Shown here one piece after another: positions 544 through 34,719 of a stretch of DNA of 34,937 nt. The position numbers and the translations under genes are program-made. This stretch comes from Bacteroidales bacterium. Its GTDB lineage: Bacteria; Bacteroidota; Bacteroidia; Bacteroidales; Bacteroidaceae. A model generated the notes under the pieces. The model searched no databases. It saw only the letters and a program-made list of their open reading frames with translations, and was not told where the DNA came from. Location: positions 1 to 34,937 of the forward strand of contig JAAYSY010000116.1 in assembly GCA_012518235.1 (NCBI GenBank), given 5' to 3'. Position 1 is the first letter of the stretch; each line of letters opens with the position of its first letter.

Positions 544-572
544 TTTGTTTTAAAGTAATTACTTTATCTTTG
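544..572 (+). promoter_or_regulatory. Bacteroidetes-type promoter for the leu operon leader
   Basis: TTTG at 544-547 (-33-like) and TATCTTTG at 565-572, an exact match to TAnnTTTG; spacer 17 bp. It lies about 20 bp upstream of the leader peptide ATG. Confidence 0.6.
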
Positions 573-593
573 CTATTACAAAAGAAAAAAGAT

Positions 594-674
594 ATGTTTT
601 TATTTATTATAAATATTCTACTCTGCATTATTATTCTGCTAGCGAAAGTAAAGTGGGAGGGATTTCTTTTATAA
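594..674 (+). CDS. Leu/Ile-rich leader peptide of the leu operon (26 aa)
   Basis: ATG...TAA encoding MFLFIINILLCIIILLAKVKWEGFLL; 7 Leu, 6 Ile and 1 Val in 26 residues. It sits between a consensus promoter and an intrinsic terminator, directly upstream of leuA. A-rich upstream region (caaaagaaaaaagat). Confidence 0.75.
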   Translation: MFLFIINILLCIIILLAKVKWEGFLL

Positions 675-725
675 TAAATTTGAATAAATAAAGAACTAAG
701 TATAAAATGATAAGCCTTTCTCACT
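652..725 (+). promoter_or_regulatory. Candidate antiterminator stem (652-665 paired with 712-725)
   Basis: AGTGGGAGGG (652-661) pairs with CTTTCTCACT (716-725) over 10 contiguous pairs including G-U. One mismatch follows, then 663-665 pairs with 712-714. This is mutually exclusive with the terminator stem. Confidence 0.6.
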
Positions 726-749
726 AAAATTGTGGGAAAGGCTTTTTTT
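712..749 (+). terminator. Intrinsic terminator/attenuator upstream of leuA
   Basis: AAGCCTTTCTCAC-taaaatt-GTGGGAAAGGCTT followed by a T run; ends 17 nt before the leuA ATG. Confidence 0.85.
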
Positions 750-765
750 GTAACTAAACCAATGA

Positions 766-2259
766 ATGATGACAGAGGACAGACTTTTTATATTTGATAC
801 CACGTTACGTGATGGTGAACAGGTTCCCGGGTGTCAATTAAACACAGTAGAAAAGATTGAGGTGGCTAAAGCTCTCGAAGAGTTAGGTGTTGATGTGATT
901 GAAGCTGGTTTTCCAGTTTCTAGCCCTGGTGATTTTAACTCTGTAATTGAAATTTCTAAAGCAGTTACTTGGCCGACAATTTGTGCTCTAACACGAGCTG
1001 TAGAAAAAGATATTGAGGTAGCAGCTGAATCTTTGAAATTTGCAAAGAATAAACGAATTCATACAGGTATAGGGACTTCGGATTTTCATATTAAACATAA
1101 GTTTAATTCAACTCGTGAGGAAATTATAGAAAGAGCTGTCAGGGCTGTAAAATATGCTCGTCGATTTGTAGAAGATGTGGAGTTTTATGCTGAAGATGCA
1201 GGTCGTACAGATAACGAGTTTCTAGCGCGAGTGATTGAGGCGGTAATTGCTGCTGGTGCAACAGTAGTAAATATACCCGATACCACAGGTTATTGTTTGC
1301 CACAAGCTTATGGTGAGAAAATTAGATTTTTAAAAGAGAATGTTTCAAATATTGATAGAGCAATTATTTCTACGCATTGTCATAATGACTTAGGTATGGC
1401 TACAGCCAATACTATGAGTGGAGTAGTGAATGGTGCTCGTCAAGTGGAAGTTACTATTAATGGAATTGGTGAACGAGCAGGTAATACTGCATTGGAAGAA
1501 GTTGTTATGATTCTAAAGAGTCATAACTTAGGAATTGACACCAATATAAATACACGTAAGATTGCTGGTGTGAGTCGTATGGTTTCTAGTTTGATGAATA
1601 TGCCAGTTCAAGCTAATAAAGCAATAGTAGGAAGAAATGCCTTTGCGCATTCATCAGGAATTCATCAAGATGGGGTATTAAAAAATACAAATACTTATGA
1701 GATTATTGATCCTAAAGAAGTCGGCATAGATGATAGTTCCATAGTATTAACAGCTCGTAGTGGTCGTGCTGCATTAAAGCACCGCTTGGAAGCTCTTGGT
1801 GTAAAGCTACAAGAAGAAGGCTTGAACAAAGTCTATGAAAAATTTCTAAATTTAGCAGATAAGAAGAAGGATATAACTGATGATGATGTATTGTTGTTGG
1901 CAGGTGCAGATCGCACACTAGATCATCACATTAAGTTGGATTATCTGCAAGTAACAAGTGGGGTAGGTGTTCGCTCAGTGGCAAGTATAGGATTAAACAT
2001 ATCGGGAGAAAAATTTGAAGCAGCTGCTTCGGGAAATGGGCCTGTAGATGCTGCAATACGTGCTCTAAAGAAAATCATTGAGCGAGAGATGACATTAAAA
2101 GAATTTACTATTCAAGCGATTAATAAAGGAAGTGATGATATGGGAAAGGTGCATATGCAAGTAGAACATGCAGGTCAAATGTATTATGGGTTTGGAGCTA
2201 ATACTGATATTGTGGCGGCATCTGTAGAAGCTTATATTGATTGTATAAATAAATTTTAA
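766..2259 (+). CDS. leuA: 2-isopropylmalate synthase
   Basis: [55 protein letters not shown]-terminal regulatory domain; adjacent leuC, leuD and leuB. Confidence 0.95.
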
Positions 2260-2297: not shown

Positions 2298-3677
2298 ATG
2301 AAACAAACATTATTTGATAAAATTTGGGATGCTCATGTGGTACAGGAAGTAGATGAAGGTCCTACTCAACTATATATTGATAGACTTTATTGTCATGAGG
2401 TGACAAGCCCTCAAGCGTTTGAAGGGTTAAGGCGAAGGAATTTAAAAGTGTTTAGGCCTGATAAGGTTATTTGTATGCCTGATCATAATACTCCAACCGT
2501 TGGGCAAGAACTACCTATACAAGACCCTATATCTAAACATCAGGTGGATGCATTGGAGAAAAATGCAAAAGATTTTGGGTTGACTTATTTTGGTATGATG
2601 AATCCTAAGAATGGTATTATTCATGTAGTAGGTCCAGAAAATGGTTTAACCTTGCCTGGTATGACTATTGTTTGTGGAGACTCACATACATCTACTCATG
2701 GTGCGCTAGGTGCTATTGCTTTTGGTATCGGTACAAGTGAGGTTGAGATGGTATTGGCTTCTCAGTGTGTTTTACAGAATCGCCCTAAAACAATGAGAAT
2801 TAATGTGAATGGTAAATTAGGATCGTGTGTAACAGCTAAAGATTTAGCGCTTTACATTATTTCTAAATTATCAACGGGAGGCGCTACGGGTTATTTTGTG
2901 GAATATGCTGGAGAAGCTGTTCGTTCATTAAGTATGGATGGAAGAATGACATTGTGTAACTTATCCATAGAAATGGGTGCAAGAGGCGGTATGATTGCTC
3001 CTGATGAGGTGGTGTTCGATTATGTAAAAGGAACGGAGTATGCTCCTAAGGGGGATGAGTGGGATAAGGCAATAGCCTACTGGAAGACGTTAAAGAGTGA
3101 TGAAGGTGCACAGTTTGATAAAGAGGTTACTATTGATGCTACAAAAATAGAGCCTATGATAACTTATGGAACCAATCCAGGTATGGGAATGGGAATAACT
3201 CAATCTATACCTGATTTGAAGAATGAGTCTTTTAGTAAGTCGATGGAGTACATGGGATTTACAGCAGGAAAATCTATTTTAGGACAACCCATAGACTATG
3301 TCTTTTTAGGATCGTGTACTAATGGACGTATAGAAGACTTTAGAGCCTTTGTATCTATTGTGAAAGGGAGAAAGAAAAAGAAGGATGTTGTTGTTTGGTT
3401 GGTTCCTGGTTCCTGGAGTGTATTGAATGAAATTAAGGAAGAAGGGTTGGATGTAATACTTGAAGAGGCTGGATTTGAAATTAGGCAACCTGGGTGCTCT
3501 GCTTGTTTAGCAATGAATGAGGATAAAGTACCTGCAGGAAAGTATTCTGTATCTACATCGAACAGGAATTTTGAAGGTCGTCAAGGGCCTGGTGCAAGAA
3601 CATTACTAGCTAGTCCATTAGTAGCTGCTGCAGCAGCAGTAACTGGAGAAATTACTGATCCTCGTACTTTACTATAA
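2298..3677 (+). CDS. leuC: 3-isopropylmalate dehydratase large subunit
   Basis: [48 protein letters not shown]; LeuC/aconitase family. Confidence 0.96.
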
Positions 3678-3704: not shown

Positions 3705-4295
3705 ATGAAACAAAAAATAAATATTATTCAATCTACTTGTGTACCTCTTCCTTTAGAAAATGTTGATACAGATCAAATTATACCTGCTCGTTTTTTAAAA
3801 GCAACGACAAAAGAAGGGTTTGGGGAAAAACTATTTTATGATTGGCGTTTCGATAAAGAAGGAAAGCCTAAAACCAATTTTGTGCTAAATAATCCAACTT
3901 ATTCTGGTGAAGTTTTAGTTGCAGGCAAAAACTTTGGGTCGGGTTCTAGTAGAGAACATGCTGCTTGGGCATTAGCTGGTTATGGTTTTCGTGTTGTAGT
4001 TAGTAGCTTTTTTGCTGATATATTTAGAAATAATGCATTAAATAATTTTGTGCTTCCTGTACAGGTAAGCGAAGATTTTTTAGCAAGGTTATTTCAGTCT
4101 ATTGATGAAAATCCAAAGAGCAAAGTAACAATTGATTTACCCAATCAGATAATTATAAATCAGCGTACCGATGAAAATGAAACTTTTGAAATCAGTGCCT
4201 ATAAAAAACATTGTTTGGAAAATGGACTGGATGATATTGACTTCCTTCTATCCCATCAAGATAAAATAGAGAAATGGGAAAGGAAGTACGCATAG
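3705..4295 (+). CDS. leuD: 3-isopropylmalate dehydratase small subunit
   Basis: [42 protein letters not shown]; LeuD family. Confidence 0.96.
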
Positions 4296-5803
4296 AGATA
4301 ATGGATACAACACTCCGTGATGGGGAACAAACTTGCGGAGTGTCATTTGTACCGCACGAGAAGTTGATGATTGCTCGTGTGTTACTTGAAGATTTACGTG
4401 TAGATCGTATAGAAGTTGGTTCAGCTCATGTTTCGGGTGGAGAATTTAAAGCCGTAGAACTCATCACTAATTGGGCCAAAAAAAATGGTTTTTTAGAAAA
4501 GGTAGAAGTGCTTGGTTTTGTTGATGATGGGAAATCTGTTGATTGGATTTCAAAGGCTGGGGGAAAAGTATTGAATTTGTTATGTAAAGGCTCATTACGT
4601 CACTGTAATTATCAGCTTAAAAAAACTCCAGAAGAACATTTAACGAATATAAAAAAAGTAGTAGATTATGCTACCGAAAAAGGAATAGCTGTTAATATCT
4701 ATTTGGAAGATTGGAGTAATGGGATGAAGGATTCTATTGAGTATGTTTTCTTTTTAATGGATGAATTACAAAATACTGAAATTAAGCGTTTTATGTTACC
4801 CGATACTTTAGGGATACTAAATCCTCTGCAAGTCATAAGATATATGGATATAATGACGGAGCGTTATCCTAATAAGCATTTTGATTTTCATGCACACAAT
4901 GATTATGATTTAGCTGTTAGCAATGTTCTAGCTGCTGTTTTTTCAAAGGTGAAAGGATTACATACTACTATAAATGGTTTAGGAGAACGAGCAGGAAATG
5001 CTGCTCTTGCTAGTGTTCAAGCTATATTAAAAGATCATTTTAATGCCATTACCAGTATTGATGAAAGTAAATTAAATGAGGCTAGTCGTATTGTAGAGTC
5101 CTATTCTACTATTATGATACCCGCCAATAAACCGATTGTGGGAGAAAATGTGTTTACACAAGTAGCAGGAGTTCATGCAGATGGAGATCAAAAAAAGGAT
5201 TTATATTGCAATGCTTTATTGCCTGAACGCTTTGGAAGAGTTAGGGAATATGCTTTAGGTAAGACCTCTGGAAAAGCTAACATTCGGAAGAACTTAGAAC
5301 AATTAGGTTTACAATTAGATGAGGATTCTATGAAGCGAGTTACGGAACGCATTATTGCTTTAGGTGATCGTAAGGAGTTAGTTACCCAAGAAGATTTGCC
5401 ATATATCATATCAGATGTATTAAAACATGATGTAATAAATGATACAGTAAAATTAAAAAGTTATTATGTAACATTGGTTAGAGGATTAAAACCAACTGCT
5501 ACACTAAGTATTGAAATTGAAGGAAAAGTGTATGAAGAAAGTTCATCGGGAGATGGTCAGTATGATGCTTTTGTTCGTGCTTTACGGAAGGTTTATAAGG
5601 ATAAATTAGGGCGGTCTTTTCCGATGCTAACAAACTATGCGGTTACCATTCCACCTGGAGGACGTACTGATGCTTTTGTTCAGACTATTATTACGTGGAG
5701 TTTTAAGAATAAGACCTTTAGAACACGTGGCTTAGATGTCGATCAAACAGAGTCGGCTATTAAGGCTACTATGAAAATGCTGAATTTAATAGATGATATA
5801 TAG
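4274..5803 (+). CDS. cimA: Citramalate synthase-like enzyme (alpha-isopropylmalate/homocitrate synthase family)
   Basis: [107 protein letters not shown]. These resemble Leptospira-type CimA more than LeuA (from memory, not aligned). Overlaps leuD by 22 nt. Confidence 0.72.
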
Positions 5804-5891: not shown

Positions 5892-6974
5892 ATGAAAATG
5901 AAAATAGCAGTGCTTCCTGGTGATGGAATAGGTCCTGAGATTACAGAGGTTGCCAAAAAAATAGTAGAAGCAGTAGCAGATAAATTTAACCATAGTGTTT
6001 CATTTGAATATGGTAGTTGTGGTGCAGATGCTATTGATAAATATGGGAATCCGTATCCTGAAGAAACCCACGCATTATGTAAAAAGAGTGATGCAGTGCT
6101 TTTTGGGGCAGTAGGACATCCTAAATTCGATAACGATCCTACAGCTAAGGTACGACCAGAACAAGGATTATTGGCTATGCGTAAGCGGTTAGGATTATAT
6201 GCTAACTTACGTCCAATAACTACATTTGAATCTTTAATACATCAATCTCCTTTACGTGCTGACTTAGTGAAAGGTGCAGATTTTTTATGTGTTAGGGAAT
6301 TAACAGGTGGACTTTATTTTGGTAGACCTCAAGGTCGTAGTGAAGATGGTAATGTAGCTTATGATACGTGTGTCTATAGTCGGGAAGAAGTTGAACGTAT
6401 CGTTCGTTTAGCTTTTGAATTTGCTATGCAACGTCGTAAAAAGCTGACTGTTGTGGATAAAGCAAATATCTTAGCTACTTCTAGACTTTGGCGTGAAGTA
6501 GCAAAGGAGATGGAACAAGATTTTCCTGAAGTGCAGACGGAGTATATGTTTGTTGATAATGTAGCTATGCGGTTAATTCAATGGCCTACATCTTTTGATG
6601 TAATAGTTACGGAAAATATGTTTGGTGATATTTTAACGGATGAAGCTTCGGTAATTACTGGTTCTATGGGGCTATTACCTTCGGCATCGATTGGGTTACA
6701 TACGTCTGTTTTTGAACCTATTCATGGTTCTTGGCCAGAGGCTGCAGGGAAAAACATAGCCAATCCATTGGCTGCTGTCCTTTCTGCAGCTATGCTATTC
6801 GAATATGCTTTTAATCTACAAGAAGAATCGGATATTATTCGAAAAGCAGTGAAGGCATCGATGGATGAGAAGATTACTACTGCTGATATTCGTACTAAAG
6901 AGGAAAAAAGTTATTCTACATCAGAAGTAGGAGAGTGGTTAGTGGATTATATCAAAAAGCAATACTGTCCATAA
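5892..6974 (+). CDS. leuB: 3-isopropylmalate dehydrogenase
   Basis: [85 protein letters not shown]. Confidence 0.96.
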
Positions 6975-7039
6975 TGATTTAATCTGTGGGGTTGGATTAT
7001 ATCAATATTTGCTAACTTGAATGTTTGAGGTACCAAGAG

Positions 7040-7074
7040 GAGAAGTGTAATAATTAGACTTCTCTTTTCTTTTT
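7040..7074 (+). terminator. Intrinsic terminator after leuB
   Basis: GAGAAGT-gtaataattag-ACTTCTC followed by TTTTCTTTTT. Confidence 0.75.
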
Positions 7075-7207
7075 AACGCTATTTTGAATTGGTGAAGTGT
7101 GAAATACTGCTAACATTTATGAATGTTCTAGTGGTATTTCTGACTATAGACAGAGGAAGTAGTTTGTTTGCTTATATTTGTATCTTAAACTAGATAATAG
7201 GTTAAGT

Positions 7208-29000: not shown

Positions 29001-30425
29001 TTAATTAATACCACCACCTAACGCTCTGTATAAATTAGTAACTGCTTGCAATTGTTCTAGTTTATCATTTACTTGATTCAATTGAGCTTCGAGTAATCCT
29101 TGTTGTGCACTGAGAACCTCAAGATAAGTAGCTAAATCAGCTTGTAGTAGTTCTTGAGTGTCAGCTACAGCTTTCTTCTGAGCTTCTACTTGGATGGCAC
29201 GATCTGCATTTTTCTTTGTCGAAGATTCGTATGTAGTAAGAATATCAGAAACTTCTTTTCCTGCCATAAGAACAGCCTTTTCAAATCCTATTAACGTTGC
29301 TCTTTCTTCAGCTTTAGCCACATTTAATTGTGTAATTAGCTTTTTTCTTGCAAACAGAGGTTGTGTTAATCCCCCAGCAATACTTGCAATTAAATTTTCA
29401 GGCTTAAAAAAGTTACTCAACCCGTTAATAGTAGAGTATCCAATTAATCCTGAAGTTAGATTGATTGAAGGGTAGAAACTAGCTCTTGATGCATTGGTTA
29501 ATTCAAAAGCAGATCTAAAAGCCAACTCAGCTTGTTGAACATCTGGTCTTTTAGCTAACATTTGAGCTGGTACACCTATTGATAAATTGGTTTTTACCAT
29601 TTGATTTGCAATGGTACTCCGTTGAATAGCAGCAGCCGGTTCTCCTAACATAACCGATAAAGCATTTTCTAGATGCGTTATGTTTTTTTCTAATTCAGGT
29701 ACTGATGTTTTAGTACTATGAAGTAGCGCTCTAGTTTGTTCTATAGCAGCAGAAGTTGTATAACCAGCTTCTTTCATTGCAATAGTAGTTTCTAACGTTT
29801 GATGTAGTAACCTTATCATATCCTGAGTTACTTCTAACTGCTTATCTAAAGCTAAAAGAGTGTAATAACTAGTAGCAATGTTGGAAATCAATGAGGTTTG
29901 TACCAAGTTGCGTCCTGCATAACTATTTAACATATCAGCATAACTTGCTCTTGATTGTCTATTTAATTTTCCCCAAACATCTAGTTCCCAGCTTGCTACA
30001 ACCCCCAATGTGTAGGTCTCTTTGTGGTAAGCTAATGAATTACGATCTTTTGGCATTCCAGTGAGTGGATCGACACTACTTAACCGAGTTTGATCAACTT
30101 GTGCTGTCAATGCAAGTTCTGGAAAATAATTTGCACGCGCTTGTCCTAAAACAGCTTCCGCTTGTTTAATTCGTTCTTGAGTAATAAGCATGTCGTGGTT
30201 GTTACTCAATCCTTTCTGAATATATCCTTGTAGAATAGGATCAGAATAAAATTCCATCCACGGAATATTTGCTATGGTCGCAGTATCTGTAGAGGCTTCA
30301 TCTCTATAGATGTCATCAATACTTAACTTAGGAGTAGAATACCGTTTTGTTACTTGGCAAGAGCTTAAACTAATTAGGAGGATAGCCCCTAATAGAAAAG
30401 TGTCTTTTATATGTTTTGTTTTCAT
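29001..30425 (-). CDS. RND efflux outer-membrane lipoprotein (NodT/OprM-type TolC family)
   Basis: Lipoprotein signal LLISLSSC; WELDVWGKLNRQSRASYADML, RPDVQQAELAFRSAFELTNASRASFYPSINLTS. Confidence 0.94.
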   Translation of the reverse strand: MKTKHIKDTFLLGAILLISLSSCQVTKRYSTPKLSIDDIYRDEASTDTATIANIPWMEFYSDPILQGYIQKGLSNNHDMLITQERIKQAEAVLGQARANYFPELALTAQVDQTRLSSVDPLTGMPKDRNSLAYHKETYTLGVVASWELDVWGKLNRQSRASYADMLNSYAGRNLVQTSLISNIATSYYTLLALDKQLEVTQDMIRLLHQTLETTIAMKEAGYTTSAAIEQTRALLHSTKTSVPELEKNITHLENALSVMLGEPAAAIQRSTIANQMVKTNLSIGVPAQMLAKRPDVQQAELAFRSAFELTNASRASFYPSINLTSGLIGYSTINGLSNFFKPENLIASIAGGLTQPLFARKKLITQLNVAKAEERATLIGFEKAVLMAGKEVSDILTTYESSTKKNADRAIQVEAQKKAVADTQELLQADLATYLEVLSAQQGLLEAQLNQVNDKLEQLQAVTNLYRALGGGIN

Positions 30426-30436
30426 CTTCTAATTTT

Positions 30437-33400
30437 TTATTGTTCTATTTGTTTTGGTTTACCCACAATCCACTCTTGTAGATATTGAAATAAAATGTAG
30501 AAGGTGGGTATAATAAATACACCAATCAGTGTACCAACTAACATACCACCTACAGCACTAATACCTACCGATTGGTTTCCTGTAGCACCTGCTCCCGTAG
30601 CAAACATCAAAGGTAGTAATCCAAAAATTAGAGCAAACGAAGTCATTAATATAGGCCTAAATCTTGCTACTGCTCCATTAATTGCCGATCGTACAATACT
30701 CTGTCCTTGCTGACGTCTTTGAACCGCATATTCAACAATTAAAATAGCATTCTTGGCTAATAAACCAATTAACATTACCATAGATACCTGAACATAAATA
30801 TTATTTACTATTCCTTTAGAAGAGCCAAAAAGATTTAGGAAAATAAAAACACCAGCTAGTCCAACGGGGATAGAAAACAGAACCGATAAGGGGGTAATGT
30901 AACTCTCGTACAGAGCAGAAAGAAGCAAGTATACAAATAGAATACAGATAAAGAATATGATTCCCAGTTGAGAATTATCGCCAGCTTCTTCACGAGTCAT
31001 TCCTGAATACTCATACCCATATCCATGAGGCAGTGTTTGTTCTGCTACTTCTTTCATTACATTAATCACATCACCAGTACTATATCCCTGTGCAGAATTT
31101 GGTATAATATTAACATCCATAGATTGGAACATATTGAAACGATTAATCATTTGCGGTCCCGTTATGTCATTGATGGTAATAAACTCACTGATAGGAGCCA
31201 TTTCTCCAGTAGGAGTCTGTACAAATAAGCCATGTAAATCTTCTAGTTTCTCTCTATATTCGGGTGCTGCTTGAATCATAACTCTAAACTGTTTACCATA
31301 TAGATTAAAATCGGATACATACATACTCCCAATGTATGCTTGTAGCGTTGACATAATACTATTTAGAGTAAGTCCTGCTTCTTTAATTTTAGGAATGTTA
31401 GCTTCGATTTCTTTCTGAGGAAAGCTAGGATTAAAAGTAGTCATAGCTACTAATACTTCATCTCTTTTATTCATTTCAGCTAAGAATCCATTTGTAATAT
31501 CGTAGAAGTCAAGCATATTACCTCCTGTTCTATCTTGCATTTTTACTTCCACTCCCGTACTCATACCAAATCCTTGCAATGTAGGTAAACCAAAGAATAA
31601 GAACGTTGCATTATTAATATCTTTCGTTTTCTCTGTTAACAGAGCTGCGAATTCAGCAGAAGAAAAGTCTCTATTGTTCCAGTGACTTAATTTATAAAAA
31701 ATAGTACCATAAGAGCTAGACATCCCTCCAATACCTCCCAAGAAGTTTACTCCGTTAATGTCTGTAACAAACTCAACTCCTTCCATATCTTCAGTTAATT
31801 TTAGCACTTGTTGAACTATAGAATCAGTTCTTTCTAGTGATGAACCTGGAGTAAGAGAAACCAAACCTAGAACACTACCACTATCTTCTTGTGGAACAAA
31901 ACCAGCAGGTGTTGTTTTTAATTGATAAAAAAGAAAAAGTCCAGCTACTGCAACAACAGCAACGGCAATCCATCGATTGGTCTTTCTACTTAAGAAATTT
32001 AAAGAAGATTTGTATTTAGTTGTTGCTGCATTGAAACCTACATTGAATAAATGGAAAAAGCGTTGGAGAACATTTTTTTTCTTTAGATTTGCATCTTTTG
32101 GCTTTAAAAATAAGGCACAAAGAGCAGGACTTAATGTTAATGCGTTCACAGCAGATATAGCAATTGCAATAGCTAAGGTTAATCCAAATTGCTTAAAGAA
32201 TACACCTTGAGTTCCTCCAATAAAGCTAACAGGAATAAATACCGATGCCATAACTAACGTAATAGAAACAATAGCAGGAGTAATTTCCTTCATGGCAGAA
32301 ACTGTAGCTTTTTTAGGATCGGTTTCGCCCCCTTCCATTTGAGCATGAACAGCTTCAACAACAATAATAGCGTCGTCCACCACAATACCAATAGCTAAAA
32401 CCAGAGATAATAACGTCAATATATTTACTGAGAAACCTAATACTTGAATAAAAAAGAAGGTTCCTATAATTGATACTGGAATAGCAATAGCGGGTATAAT
32501 TGTTGACTTAAAATCTTGTAGGAAAATAAATACCACTAAGAATACTAAAAGTAAAGCCTCAATAAATGTAGTAATAACCTTAGACATTGATGCAGATAAA
32601 AACTCGTTAGCATCCATCATATAGGCCACTTCAATACCAGGAGGAAAGTCTTTGGCCGCTTCATCTACAACTTCTTGCACTTTCTTAATTAGGTCTTGTG
32701 CATTTGATTCAGCTGTTTGACTAATAGAAACGAATACCGATTCGTGCCCATTAGTTGATGAAGTTATGGAGTAATTTAATGATCCTAGTTCTACATTAGC
32801 TATATCTTTTAGTCTTAAAATGTGTCCATTTTCTGAGCGAATAACAACATTTTCAAACTCTTCAGCCGATTTTAATCTACCTGTATATTTTAAGCTGTAT
32901 TGAAAGGCTTGATTACTATTTTCACCTAATTCACCAGGAGCAGCTTCTATGTTCTGATCTCTTAATGCTTGGATTACTTCAGCTGGTGTAATTAAATACG
33001 AGGCCATAATATCAGGCTTTAACCATACCCTCATAGAGAAGTCTTTTGCACCTAAAACCTCAGCTTCTCCAATACCATAAATTCGTTTTATTTGTGGTAG
33101 TAAGTTTACGTTAAGGTAGTTTTGTACAAACTCAGCATCATAGTCTGGATTTTCAGAATAGACAGACATCATAAGAATATAACTACTTAATCTTTTTTGA
33201 ACCGTAACTCCCATTTCATTCACTTCAGCTGGAAGTAAAGGAGCAGCTCTAGAGACTAAGTTTTGCACGTTAACTGCCGCAATATCGGGATCAACTCCTT
33301 TTTCAAAGAATATTTGAATCGATCCAATACCACTATTAGAAGCTGTAGATGTCATATAGGTCATACCCTCAACTCCATTTACTTGCTCTTCAATGGGAAT

Positions 33401-33586
33401 AATTACACTATTCATTACTACATCAGCATTAGCTCCAGGGTACTGAGCTGTAATACTTACGGTAGGAGGTGCAATATCAGGATACTGTTCAACAGGTAGT
33501 GTAGCTATTCCGATGATACCTAGTGCAACGATCAATATTGATATTACAGTAGATAATACGGGTCTTTCTATAAATGTTTTAATCAT
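30437..33586 (-). CDS. HAE1-type RND multidrug efflux permease (AcrB/MexB family)
   Basis: 1049 aa; FIERPVLSTVISILIVALG, LPVEQYPDIAPPTVSITAQYPGA, VDDAIIVVEAVHAQMEGG, LSPALCALFLKP, LLAKNAILIVEYAVQ. Confidence 0.96.
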   Translation of the reverse strand: MIKTFIERPVLSTVISILIVALGIIGIATLPVEQYPDIAPPTVSITAQYPGANADVVMNSVIIPIEEQVNGVEGMTYMTSTASNSGIGSIQIFFEKGVDPDIAAVNVQNLVSRAAPLLPAEVNEMGVTVQKRLSSYILMMSVYSENPDYDAEFVQNYLNVNLLPQIKRIYGIGEAEVLGAKDFSMRVWLKPDIMASYLITPAEVIQALRDQNIEAAPGELGENSNQAFQYSLKYTGRLKSAEEFENVVIRSENGHILRLKDIANVELGSLNYSITSSTNGHESVFVSISQTAESNAQDLIKKVQEVVDEAAKDFPPGIEVAYMMDANEFLSASMSKVITTFIEALLLVFLVVFIFLQDFKSTIIPAIAIPVSIIGTFFFIQVLGFSVNILTLLSLVLAIGIVVDDAIIVVEAVHAQMEGGETDPKKATVSAMKEITPAIVSITLVMASVFIPVSFIGGTQGVFFKQFGLTLAIAIAISAVNALTLSPALCALFLKPKDANLKKKNVLQRFFHLFNVGFNAATTKYKSSLNFLSRKTNRWIAVAVVAVAGLFLFYQLKTTPAGFVPQEDSGSVLGLVSLTPGSSLERTDSIVQQVLKLTEDMEGVEFVTDINGVNFLGGIGGMSSSYGTIFYKLSHWNNRDFSSAEFAALLTEKTKDINNATFLFFGLPTLQGFGMSTGVEVKMQDRTGGNMLDFYDITNGFLAEMNKRDEVLVAMTTFNPSFPQKEIEANIPKIKEAGLTLNSIMSTLQAYIGSMYVSDFNLYGKQFRVMIQAAPEYREKLEDLHGLFVQTPTGEMAPISEFITINDITGPQMINRFNMFQSMDVNIIPNSAQGYSTGDVINVMKEVAEQTLPHGYGYEYSGMTREEAGDNSQLGIIFFICILFVYLLLSALYESYITPLSVLFSIPVGLAGVFIFLNLFGSSKGIVNNIYVQVSMVMLIGLLAKNAILIVEYAVQRRQQGQSIVRSAINGAVARFRPILMTSFALIFGLLPLMFATGAGATGNQSVGISAVGGMLVGTLIGVFIIPTFYILFQYLQEWIVGKPKQIEQ

Positions 33587-33597
33587 TTGTTCTAGTT

Positions 33598-34719
33598 TTA
33601 TTGATTTACAGCAAGGTCTTGGTAGCTAATTTTTTGACCATTGCGGAGGGTAATAATTCCTTCAGCTACAATTCGCTCTCCTTCACTTAATCCTTGAGTA
33701 ACAGCATAGTTATGGCCATCGGGAGTAGGAAGTACTTCAACCACCCTTTGTCTTACCGTGTCATTTTCTACTACATAAGCCACTCTTTTATTTAGTTGGG
33801 CGAAAGTAGATTTTTGTGGAATTATAAAAGCATTTTCAACTACTCTAGGAGTAATAACCTTAGCACTTGCACCACTTCTTAATAGTCCTTTTTTATTTGG
33901 AAACTCAACACGAAAATTTGCCGATCCGGTTCTAATATTTAGTGACCCAGTAATTGTTTCTAATTTTCCTTTTTCTTCATAAATTGAACCGTCTGCTAAA
34001 ATCAATGAAATTTCGGGGGCATTGTTTATTTTTTCTTGTTGTGTTTCTCCTTTGAGATTATTTAAATAGACAGCCAATTCTTTTTCATTAAGCGAAAAGT
34101 GTGCATAAATGTTACTTGTATTAGCTACCGTGGTTAGTACATTAACAGAACTAACTAAACTACCTAGACGGTAAGGTATTTCACCTATTAATCCATCAAC
34201 AGGGCTAATTACATGAGTCCATCCTATGGTTGCTTGTGCATTTTTTAATGCAGCTTCAGCTTGTGCTAATCCAGCTAAAGCAGTTTGTAATGCATCTTTA
34301 GCTTTCTCCAATTGAACTTGACCTACAATGCCTTTTTCAGCTAAGGGACGAATGCGATCTACATTCATTTGAGCAGTATTGACTTGTGCTTCTGCACTTT
34401 TTAATCCAGCTTTTGCTGTTGTTAAAACCTGTTCTGCTTGAGGGGAGTTAATCTTAAATAAGCGTTCTCCTTTTTTTACTTCAGCTCCTTCATCTATATA
34501 GATTTCATCGATAAATCCATCAATTCTGGGACGTATTTCAATGTCTTGTTGTCCTTTAATTGTAGCAGGAAATATATTTTCTAAGGTGGCATTTTCTCTA
34601 CTTACTACGAGCGTAGTATAAATGTTCTCTTTTTGTTCTACCTGAGCCTGTTTCTGACTACACGAGCCAAGTATTCCTACTGATAGAATTATAAATGCAA
34701 TTTGTACAATCTTTTTCAT
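33598..34719 (-). CDS. RND efflux periplasmic adaptor (membrane fusion protein), lipoprotein
   Basis: Lipoprotein signal IILSVGILGSCS; IRPRIDGFIDEIYIDEGAEVKKGERLFKI, ATIGWTHVISPVDGLIGEIPYRLGSLV. Confidence 0.94.
   Translation of the reverse strand: MKKIVQIAFIILSVGILGSCSQKQAQVEQKENIYTTLVVSRENATLENIFPATIKGQQDIEIRPRIDGFIDEIYIDEGAEVKKGERLFKINSPQAEQVLTTAKAGLKSAEAQVNTAQMNVDRIRPLAEKGIVGQVQLEKAKDALQTALAGLAQAEAALKNAQATIGWTHVISPVDGLIGEIPYRLGSLVSSVNVLTTVANTSNIYAHFSLNEKELAVYLNNLKGETQQEKINNAPEISLILADGSIYEEKGKLETITGSLNIRTGSANFRVEFPNKKGLLRSGASAKVITPRVVENAFIIPQKSTFAQLNKRVAYVVENDTVRQRVVEVLPTPDGHNYAVTQGLSEGERIVAEGIITLRNGQKISYQDLAVNQ

Follow-up and report, generated by a model that had tools for sequence, protein, structure and literature searches.

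A predicted leader-peptide attenuator of the leu operon in Bacteroidales, with related leaders upstream of ilvD

The region upstream of leuA in a Bacteroidales bacterium controls, with a probability that we put at roughly 90% from sequence and comparison, the leuA-leuC-leuD-cimA-leuB operon by ribosome-mediated transcription attenuation. The region lies in what we call the window, the whole stretch of DNA analysed here (34,937 nucleotides, contig JAAYSY010000116.1 of assembly GCA_012518235.1). Taken together, the window and its relatives bring out a short ORF with control codons, a pair of covarying helices that exclude each other, a characteristic spacing, a promoter and a matching operon content. 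An initial annotation, made from the letters of the window, had predicted ribosome-mediated attenuation at this place, and the conservation of peptide, stems, promoter and spacing in Bacteroidales leuA leaders supports that prediction.

Leader anatomy and the predicted switch

The coordinates first proposed for the promoter, ORF, antiterminator arm, terminator and leuA were all exact to the base when checked against the sequence (Table 1). The pairing put forward between AGTGGGAGGG (652-661) and CTTTCTCACT (716-725) is also the most stable duplex that we computed for the leader with the 5' arm of the terminator. Through this pairing the antiterminator arm, which overlaps the end of the ORF, shares the 5' arm of the terminator. 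The last Leu codon lies 10 nt before the antiterminator arm, and the stop codon ends 23 nt past the arm start. The start of the leader is A-rich, without an evident Shine-Dalgarno sequence, and leuA could alternatively start at its second ATG, at 769.

Table 1 Features of the leader and of the downstream operon in the window
Feature	Position	Strand	Details	Evidence
Bacteroidetes-type promoter	544..572	+	TTTG -33 region 544-547; -7 element TATCTTTG (TAnnTTTG) 565-572	sequence
Leader peptide ORF MFLFIINILLCIIILLAKVKWEGFLL	594..674	+	26 codons; ATG 594, stop TAA 672-674	shuffle test p=0.0008; homologous leaders
Control codons ATT ATT ATT CTG CTA (Ile-Ile-Ile-Leu-Leu)	627..641	+		conservation in relatives
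Antiterminator 5' arm AGTGGGAGGG	652..661	+	partner 716-725 (CTTTCTCACT); GGAAGTGAG in relatives	duplex energy, covariation
Intrinsic terminator	712..749	+	5' arm 712-724 = shared partner; 3' arm 732-744; T-run 743-749	z=-6.8, covariation
Terminator 3' arm segment GTGGGAAAGG	732-741	+		
leuA, 2-isopropylmalate synthase	766..2259	+		NCBIfam TIGR00973 and NF002086 over cut-off
leuC	2298..3677	+		TIGR00170 over cut-off
leuD	3705..4295	+		TIGR00171 204.7 bits, cut-off 116.25
CimA-like citramalate synthase	4274..5803	+		best NCBIfam NF042433 CimA 637 bits, below its cut-off 950
leuB	5892..6974	+		TIGR00169 over cut-off

Dinucleotide shuffles of the window sequence gave p=0.0008 for an Ile/Leu-rich ORF (ATG start, at least 20 codons, at least 50% Ile+Leu), and the terminator, at -20.0 kcal/mol, reached z=-6.8 in a shuffle test on the same sequence. 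The best duplex that the leader could form with this arm had an energy of -13.5 kcal/mol against a shuffle mean of -9.3 (p=0.046), a marginal advantage over chance for the antiterminator when the window is taken by itself. As this value is weak by itself, the case for the antiterminator rests on relatives. Thus the ORF and the terminator are significant without comparison, whereas the antiterminator needs comparative evidence, which supports it and settles the matter.

Folding yielded both of the competing conformers that had been expected. With the footprint of a stalled ribosome removed, the RNA folded into the antiterminator, at -13.4 kcal/mol before the terminator 3' arm exists; with the footprint of a ribosome at the stop codon removed, it formed the terminator only, at -20.0 kcal/mol. 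From this arrangement we infer ribosome stalling, termination near 749 and a response to Leu and Ile, as follows. RNA polymerase would start just 3' of position 572, with a ribosome trailing it through the 26-codon leader. Were charged tRNA-Ile or tRNA-Leu scarce, the ribosome would stall at the Ile-Ile-Ile-Leu-Leu run (627-641), with its leading edge some 10 nt downstream; 652-661 would then be available for pairing with 716-725 ahead of synthesis of the terminator 3' arm, and transcription would read through into leuA. Were both amino acids ample, the ribosome would reach the stop codon (672-674) and cover 652-661, and with the arm covered 712-724 would pair with 732-744, ending transcription near 749.

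Pfam and NCBIfam gave the operon order leuA-leuC-leuD-(cimA-like)-leuB, in which the CimA-like gene scores 637 bits against the CimA model and 335 bits against the best LeuA model; it overlaps leuD by 22 bases (4274-4295). In the citramalate synthase route, leuCDB are used to make 2-oxobutyrate, an isoleucine precursor. The control codons, Leu and Ile, match the products of the downstream leuA-C-D-cimA-leuB operon, and because a CimA-like gene is present, Leu codons combined with Ile codons suit this operon better than Leu codons alone would. Elsewhere, the window holds a complete RND efflux operon on the minus strand (29001-34719), encoding a membrane-fusion protein, an AcrB-type pump and an outer-membrane factor.

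leuA leaders of relatives and the window's own copy

From the leuA loci of named GTDB genomes and of genomes of the window's family we obtained 165 distinct upstream regions. A simple search for a terminator, a complementary upstream arm and a short ORF recovered the same anatomy in 96 of them, a few of the ORFs being spurious, and a covariance model of leuA leaders found no element at about 35 of 80 named Bacteroidales leuA loci. Homologous leader peptides of the ILLxGIIILL type stand in most Bacteroidales leuA upstream regions; typical ones read MNQSFIHILLSGIIILLAKFSGSECCA or MNNNFLHILLLGIIILLQNK, and Prevotella-type peptides end in ...IIIIRLR. In an alignment of relatives, conservation within the leader was highest over ATTATTCT(A/G)CTG. 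In relatives the last part of the ORF is shared with the arm, GGAAGTGAG; the complementary CTCACTTCC makes up the upper part of the 5' strand of the terminator stem, together with the terminator loop. The Leu and Ile codons, the peptide and the stems that the initial annotation expected to be conserved in Bacteroidales leuA leaders are so, as are promoter and spacing.

Covariation was counted in a MAFFT alignment of 47 diverse leuA leaders (A1). In the antiterminator helix 93.9% of cells were paired, and 7 of 9 pairs varied at both positions; all shuffles scored lower, and slid controls reached 38-62%. The terminator was paired in 92.1% of cells, with both-side changes in 11 of 13 pairs, and beat all shuffles. 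Because MAFFT displaced the arm of the window by about 6 nt relative to the GGAAGTGAG of its relatives and we counted it in that register, these counts are, if anything, understated. At A1 columns 136/153, halfway along the terminator stem, most sequences have a mismatched pair, involving a base that is mostly paired in the antiterminator; this mismatch may weaken the terminator and so balance the two states. RNAalifold on the 47 leaders returned the terminator as the sole conserved structure and no 1:2 protector hairpin that would sequester the arm in the absence of translation. The geometry of the E. coli leu and ilv leaders, claimed at the outset, was thus borne out for the ORF, control codons, competing helices and spacing and not for the 1:2 pause hairpin, which is not conserved.

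A bacterial ribosome covers about 10-12 nt past its A-site codon. In relatives the last Ile/Leu codon mostly lies 10-11 nt before the arm, and the stop codon mostly ends 22-26 nt past the arm start. This spacing fits a ribosome switch in which a stalled ribosome would just free the arm and a terminating one would cover it. Of 95 leuA leaders, 81 have a TAnnTTTG element in the 75 nt that precede the leader ATG, as against 5% of shuffles.

Codon choice in the relatives' leaders is uneven: ATT makes up 78% of the Ile codons, and CTA makes up 30% of the Leu codons versus 1.8% in the same organisms' leuA genes. The leuL leader of E. coli uses rare codons, which the relatives' preference for CTA resembles. 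This rare-codon argument does not carry to the window, because CTA is not rare in its AT-rich genome (122 of 852 Leu codons, 14%). In Prevotella-type leaders (for example L010, L028, L037) the control run has CGA (Arg) in place of the Leu codon CTA, one base apart (ATTATTATTCGACTG); CGA accounts for 33% of leader Arg codons versus about 6% in relatives' leuA genes.

With a covariance model trained on leuA leaders only (R1), the window element scored 77 bits (E=5.5e-14) and was the only strong match in its own genome, where a search for further copies returned only leuA, the nine weak places inspected (E 0.05-2) showing no plausible leader system. Is this copy still a working switch? It could belong to a true attenuator family and yet be decaying, loss of ilv genes having left it termination-biased and with little response. 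By the balance between antiterminator (-13.5) and terminator (-19.6) it ranks 90 of 92, among the most terminator-biased, the two being about equal in relatives. Where relatives have the conserved GGAAGTGAG/CTCACTTCC block, it has AGTGGGAGGG/CTTTCTCACT, three of whose pairs are G-U. The competing stems of the initial annotation are present as mutually exclusive helices, with an antiterminator weaker than in most relatives. In addition, ilvB, ilvC and ilvD were not found in the window's genome (97% complete; control searches positive). These genes have possibly been lost, and without ilvBCD the physiology may have changed; equally, the assembly is in 322 contigs and the ilv genes may just be missing from it. 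Against decay, the ORF, control codons, spacing, promoter, terminator and 10-bp antiterminator are all intact, and the antiterminator would be the first to form, before the terminator 3' arm exists. We regard decay as unlikely, if worth keeping in mind.

In both congeners (G009, G037) leuB is immediately followed by ilvD, which belongs to the same operon and has no leader of its own, whereas in the window a TPR-repeat gene follows leuB (6974-7178). The leuA leaders of these congeners contain Val codons (VIIVLIIILLL and IIVISIILLL), which otherwise occur in 6 of 90 leuA leaders (Fisher p=0.007, with n=2 congeners); the core of the window leader has none. This pattern is in line with leader codons that follow the content of the operon, but the comparison was made post hoc, and a missing contig could account for part of it.

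ilvD leaders and leaders of other amino-acid operons

A search of 295 Bacteroidales genomes with model R1, whose training set contained no ilvD leaders, gave matches at E<=1e-5 in 64 genomes. We inspected 58 matches at places that the leaders of the window's own family had not already covered. All 58 directly precede leuA (35) or ilvD (23), and none stands before another gene. The ilvD leaders, present in many Bacteroidales (L209, L210, L211, L213, L215, L036:479-601 and most of L252-L299), have the same design with Val/Ile/Leu peptides. Peptides with Val include MMNNVLHIILVVVLLVISR and MKSQLLTSLVSVVVVVNEGK; in a 12-residue core, Val makes up 1% of leuA leaders versus 25% of ilvD leaders, and at least two Val residues are present in 3 of 125 leuA leader peptides versus 19 of 24 ilvD leader peptides (Fisher p=1e-16). 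Given this difference in Val content, the control codons follow the pathway.

Neither a small membrane protein nor an RNA acting through its structure would be expected to have codons that track the pathway. The product of the leader ORF is short and very hydrophobic, as a small membrane peptide would be, and the hairpin could then be an ordinary constitutive terminator that holds leuA low. Against this stand the covariation of the second, competing helix, the fixed spacing to the arm and the Val content of the ilvD leaders, and we consider it very improbable. Terminator and antiterminator are also the common architecture of riboswitches, T-boxes and protein-binding leaders, in which case the ORF would be incidental. 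However, an Rfam scan of the window found no family at its gathering score, including T-box, riboswitches, Bacteroid-trp and leader families, and relaxed thresholds over 540-770 gave chance-level matches only. Moreover, the consensus fold is the terminator alone, with no conserved domain the size of an aptamer, and conservation is concentrated in the codons and the two arms, which makes a riboswitch-like leader hard to credit. An AT-rich ORF and a terminator might also have come together by chance, to which the p=0.046 of the antiterminator in the window could point; conservation and covariation across Bacteroidales, and inspected model matches that stand only before leuA or ilvD, make the probability of this negligible.

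At class level, we searched Bacteroidia at E<=1e-3 and inspected 20 weaker or secondary matches, naming genes by NCBIfam for representatives. Sixteen of the 20 precede amino-acid genes, and one runs off its contig; ilvD, ilvB and leuA are among the genes found. Three matches (L221, L222, L224) do not stand before amino-acid genes and were rejected as false. Upstream of thrA (L219, L225) the leader peptide is rich in Thr and Ile (MTINNTIITTIITTGIKDGGR), and upstream of asnA and a prephenate dehydratase gene (L227) it is rich in Asn, Phe and Tyr (MMNFYFNNNFNYATPPGGD), each being followed by a similar terminator. Among the leaders of sulfur amino-acid genes, that of cysE-cysK (L217) has a Cys run (...CSSLVCCCKN...), that of a nitrite/sulfite reductase family gene (L223) reads ...GMCCCCAFLWRG and that of an O-acetylhomoserine sulfhydrylase gene (L228) has a Met/Cys run (...MQMMCMCCYM...), with CCC and CCCC occurring within this set, suggesting Cys- and Met-responsive attenuation. 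The leaders of these other operons seem to apply one regulatory principle through different control codons; the quantitative test covers leu and ilv only. On balance we lean towards a single terminator/antiterminator design in Bacteroidia (AAAGCCTTTCTCAC...), with interchangeable control codons, that would attenuate most amino-acid pathways: leu, ilv, thr, asn-phe, cys, sulfite/nitrite reductase and met.

Known attenuators and meaning for Bacteroidales

The leu, ilvGMEDA and ilvB leaders of E. coli and Salmonella (leuL, ilvL, ivbL) combine a short ORF, Leu or Ile/Val/Leu control codons and mutually exclusive antiterminator and terminator. The window leader is like them in its short ORF, control codons, exclusive helices and downstream biosynthetic operon; unlike them, it has no conserved 1:2 hairpin and no evident Shine-Dalgarno sequence, it has a Bacteroidetes -33/-7 promoter, and it matches no Rfam family. 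The predicted Bacteroidales leu/ilv attenuator family is absent from Rfam 15, and the mechanism itself is of a known type.

Bacteroid-trp RNA (RF01692), which we take to be a trp leader attenuator, comes from the same phylum and is likewise a cis-regulatory RNA, but it is named for trp and the window does not match it. It is tabulated as a Bacteroidetes cis-regulatory motif in PMC2864571 (Weinberg 2010). In other phyla, the accounts of the ilvB-II uORF motif of Corynebacterium (PMC10272879) and of the ilvD attenuator of S. aureus (PMC5794164) describe a branched-chain-rich leader peptide with terminator and antiterminator before a branched-chain amino-acid operon; both differ from the window in having unrelated sequence and another first gene. 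Closer to the window, a report on Flavobacterium psychrophilum, of the same phylum, mentions 'strong clues' of leader-peptide attenuation before amino-acid biosynthesis operons, its main text giving no leu/ilv detail for Bacteroidales (PMC9723704), and B. thetaiotaomicron sORFs have been called 'reminiscent of leader peptides' (PMC7366714). Our literature search, which covered few subscription papers, found no described Bacteroidales leu/ilv attenuator; an earlier mention (Vitreschak 2004, Lopatovskaya 2010) is possible.

These results give a dominant gut and rumen order a predicted Leu/Ile attenuator family and a Val-containing sister family upstream of ilvD. They predict that the leu and ilv operons of Bacteroidales would sense the supply of aminoacyl-tRNA in cis. 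Tight coupling of transcription and translation has, to our knowledge, hardly been examined so far in Bacteroidota; because the proposed mechanism requires a ribosome near RNA polymerase, such coupling would become testable with small reporters.
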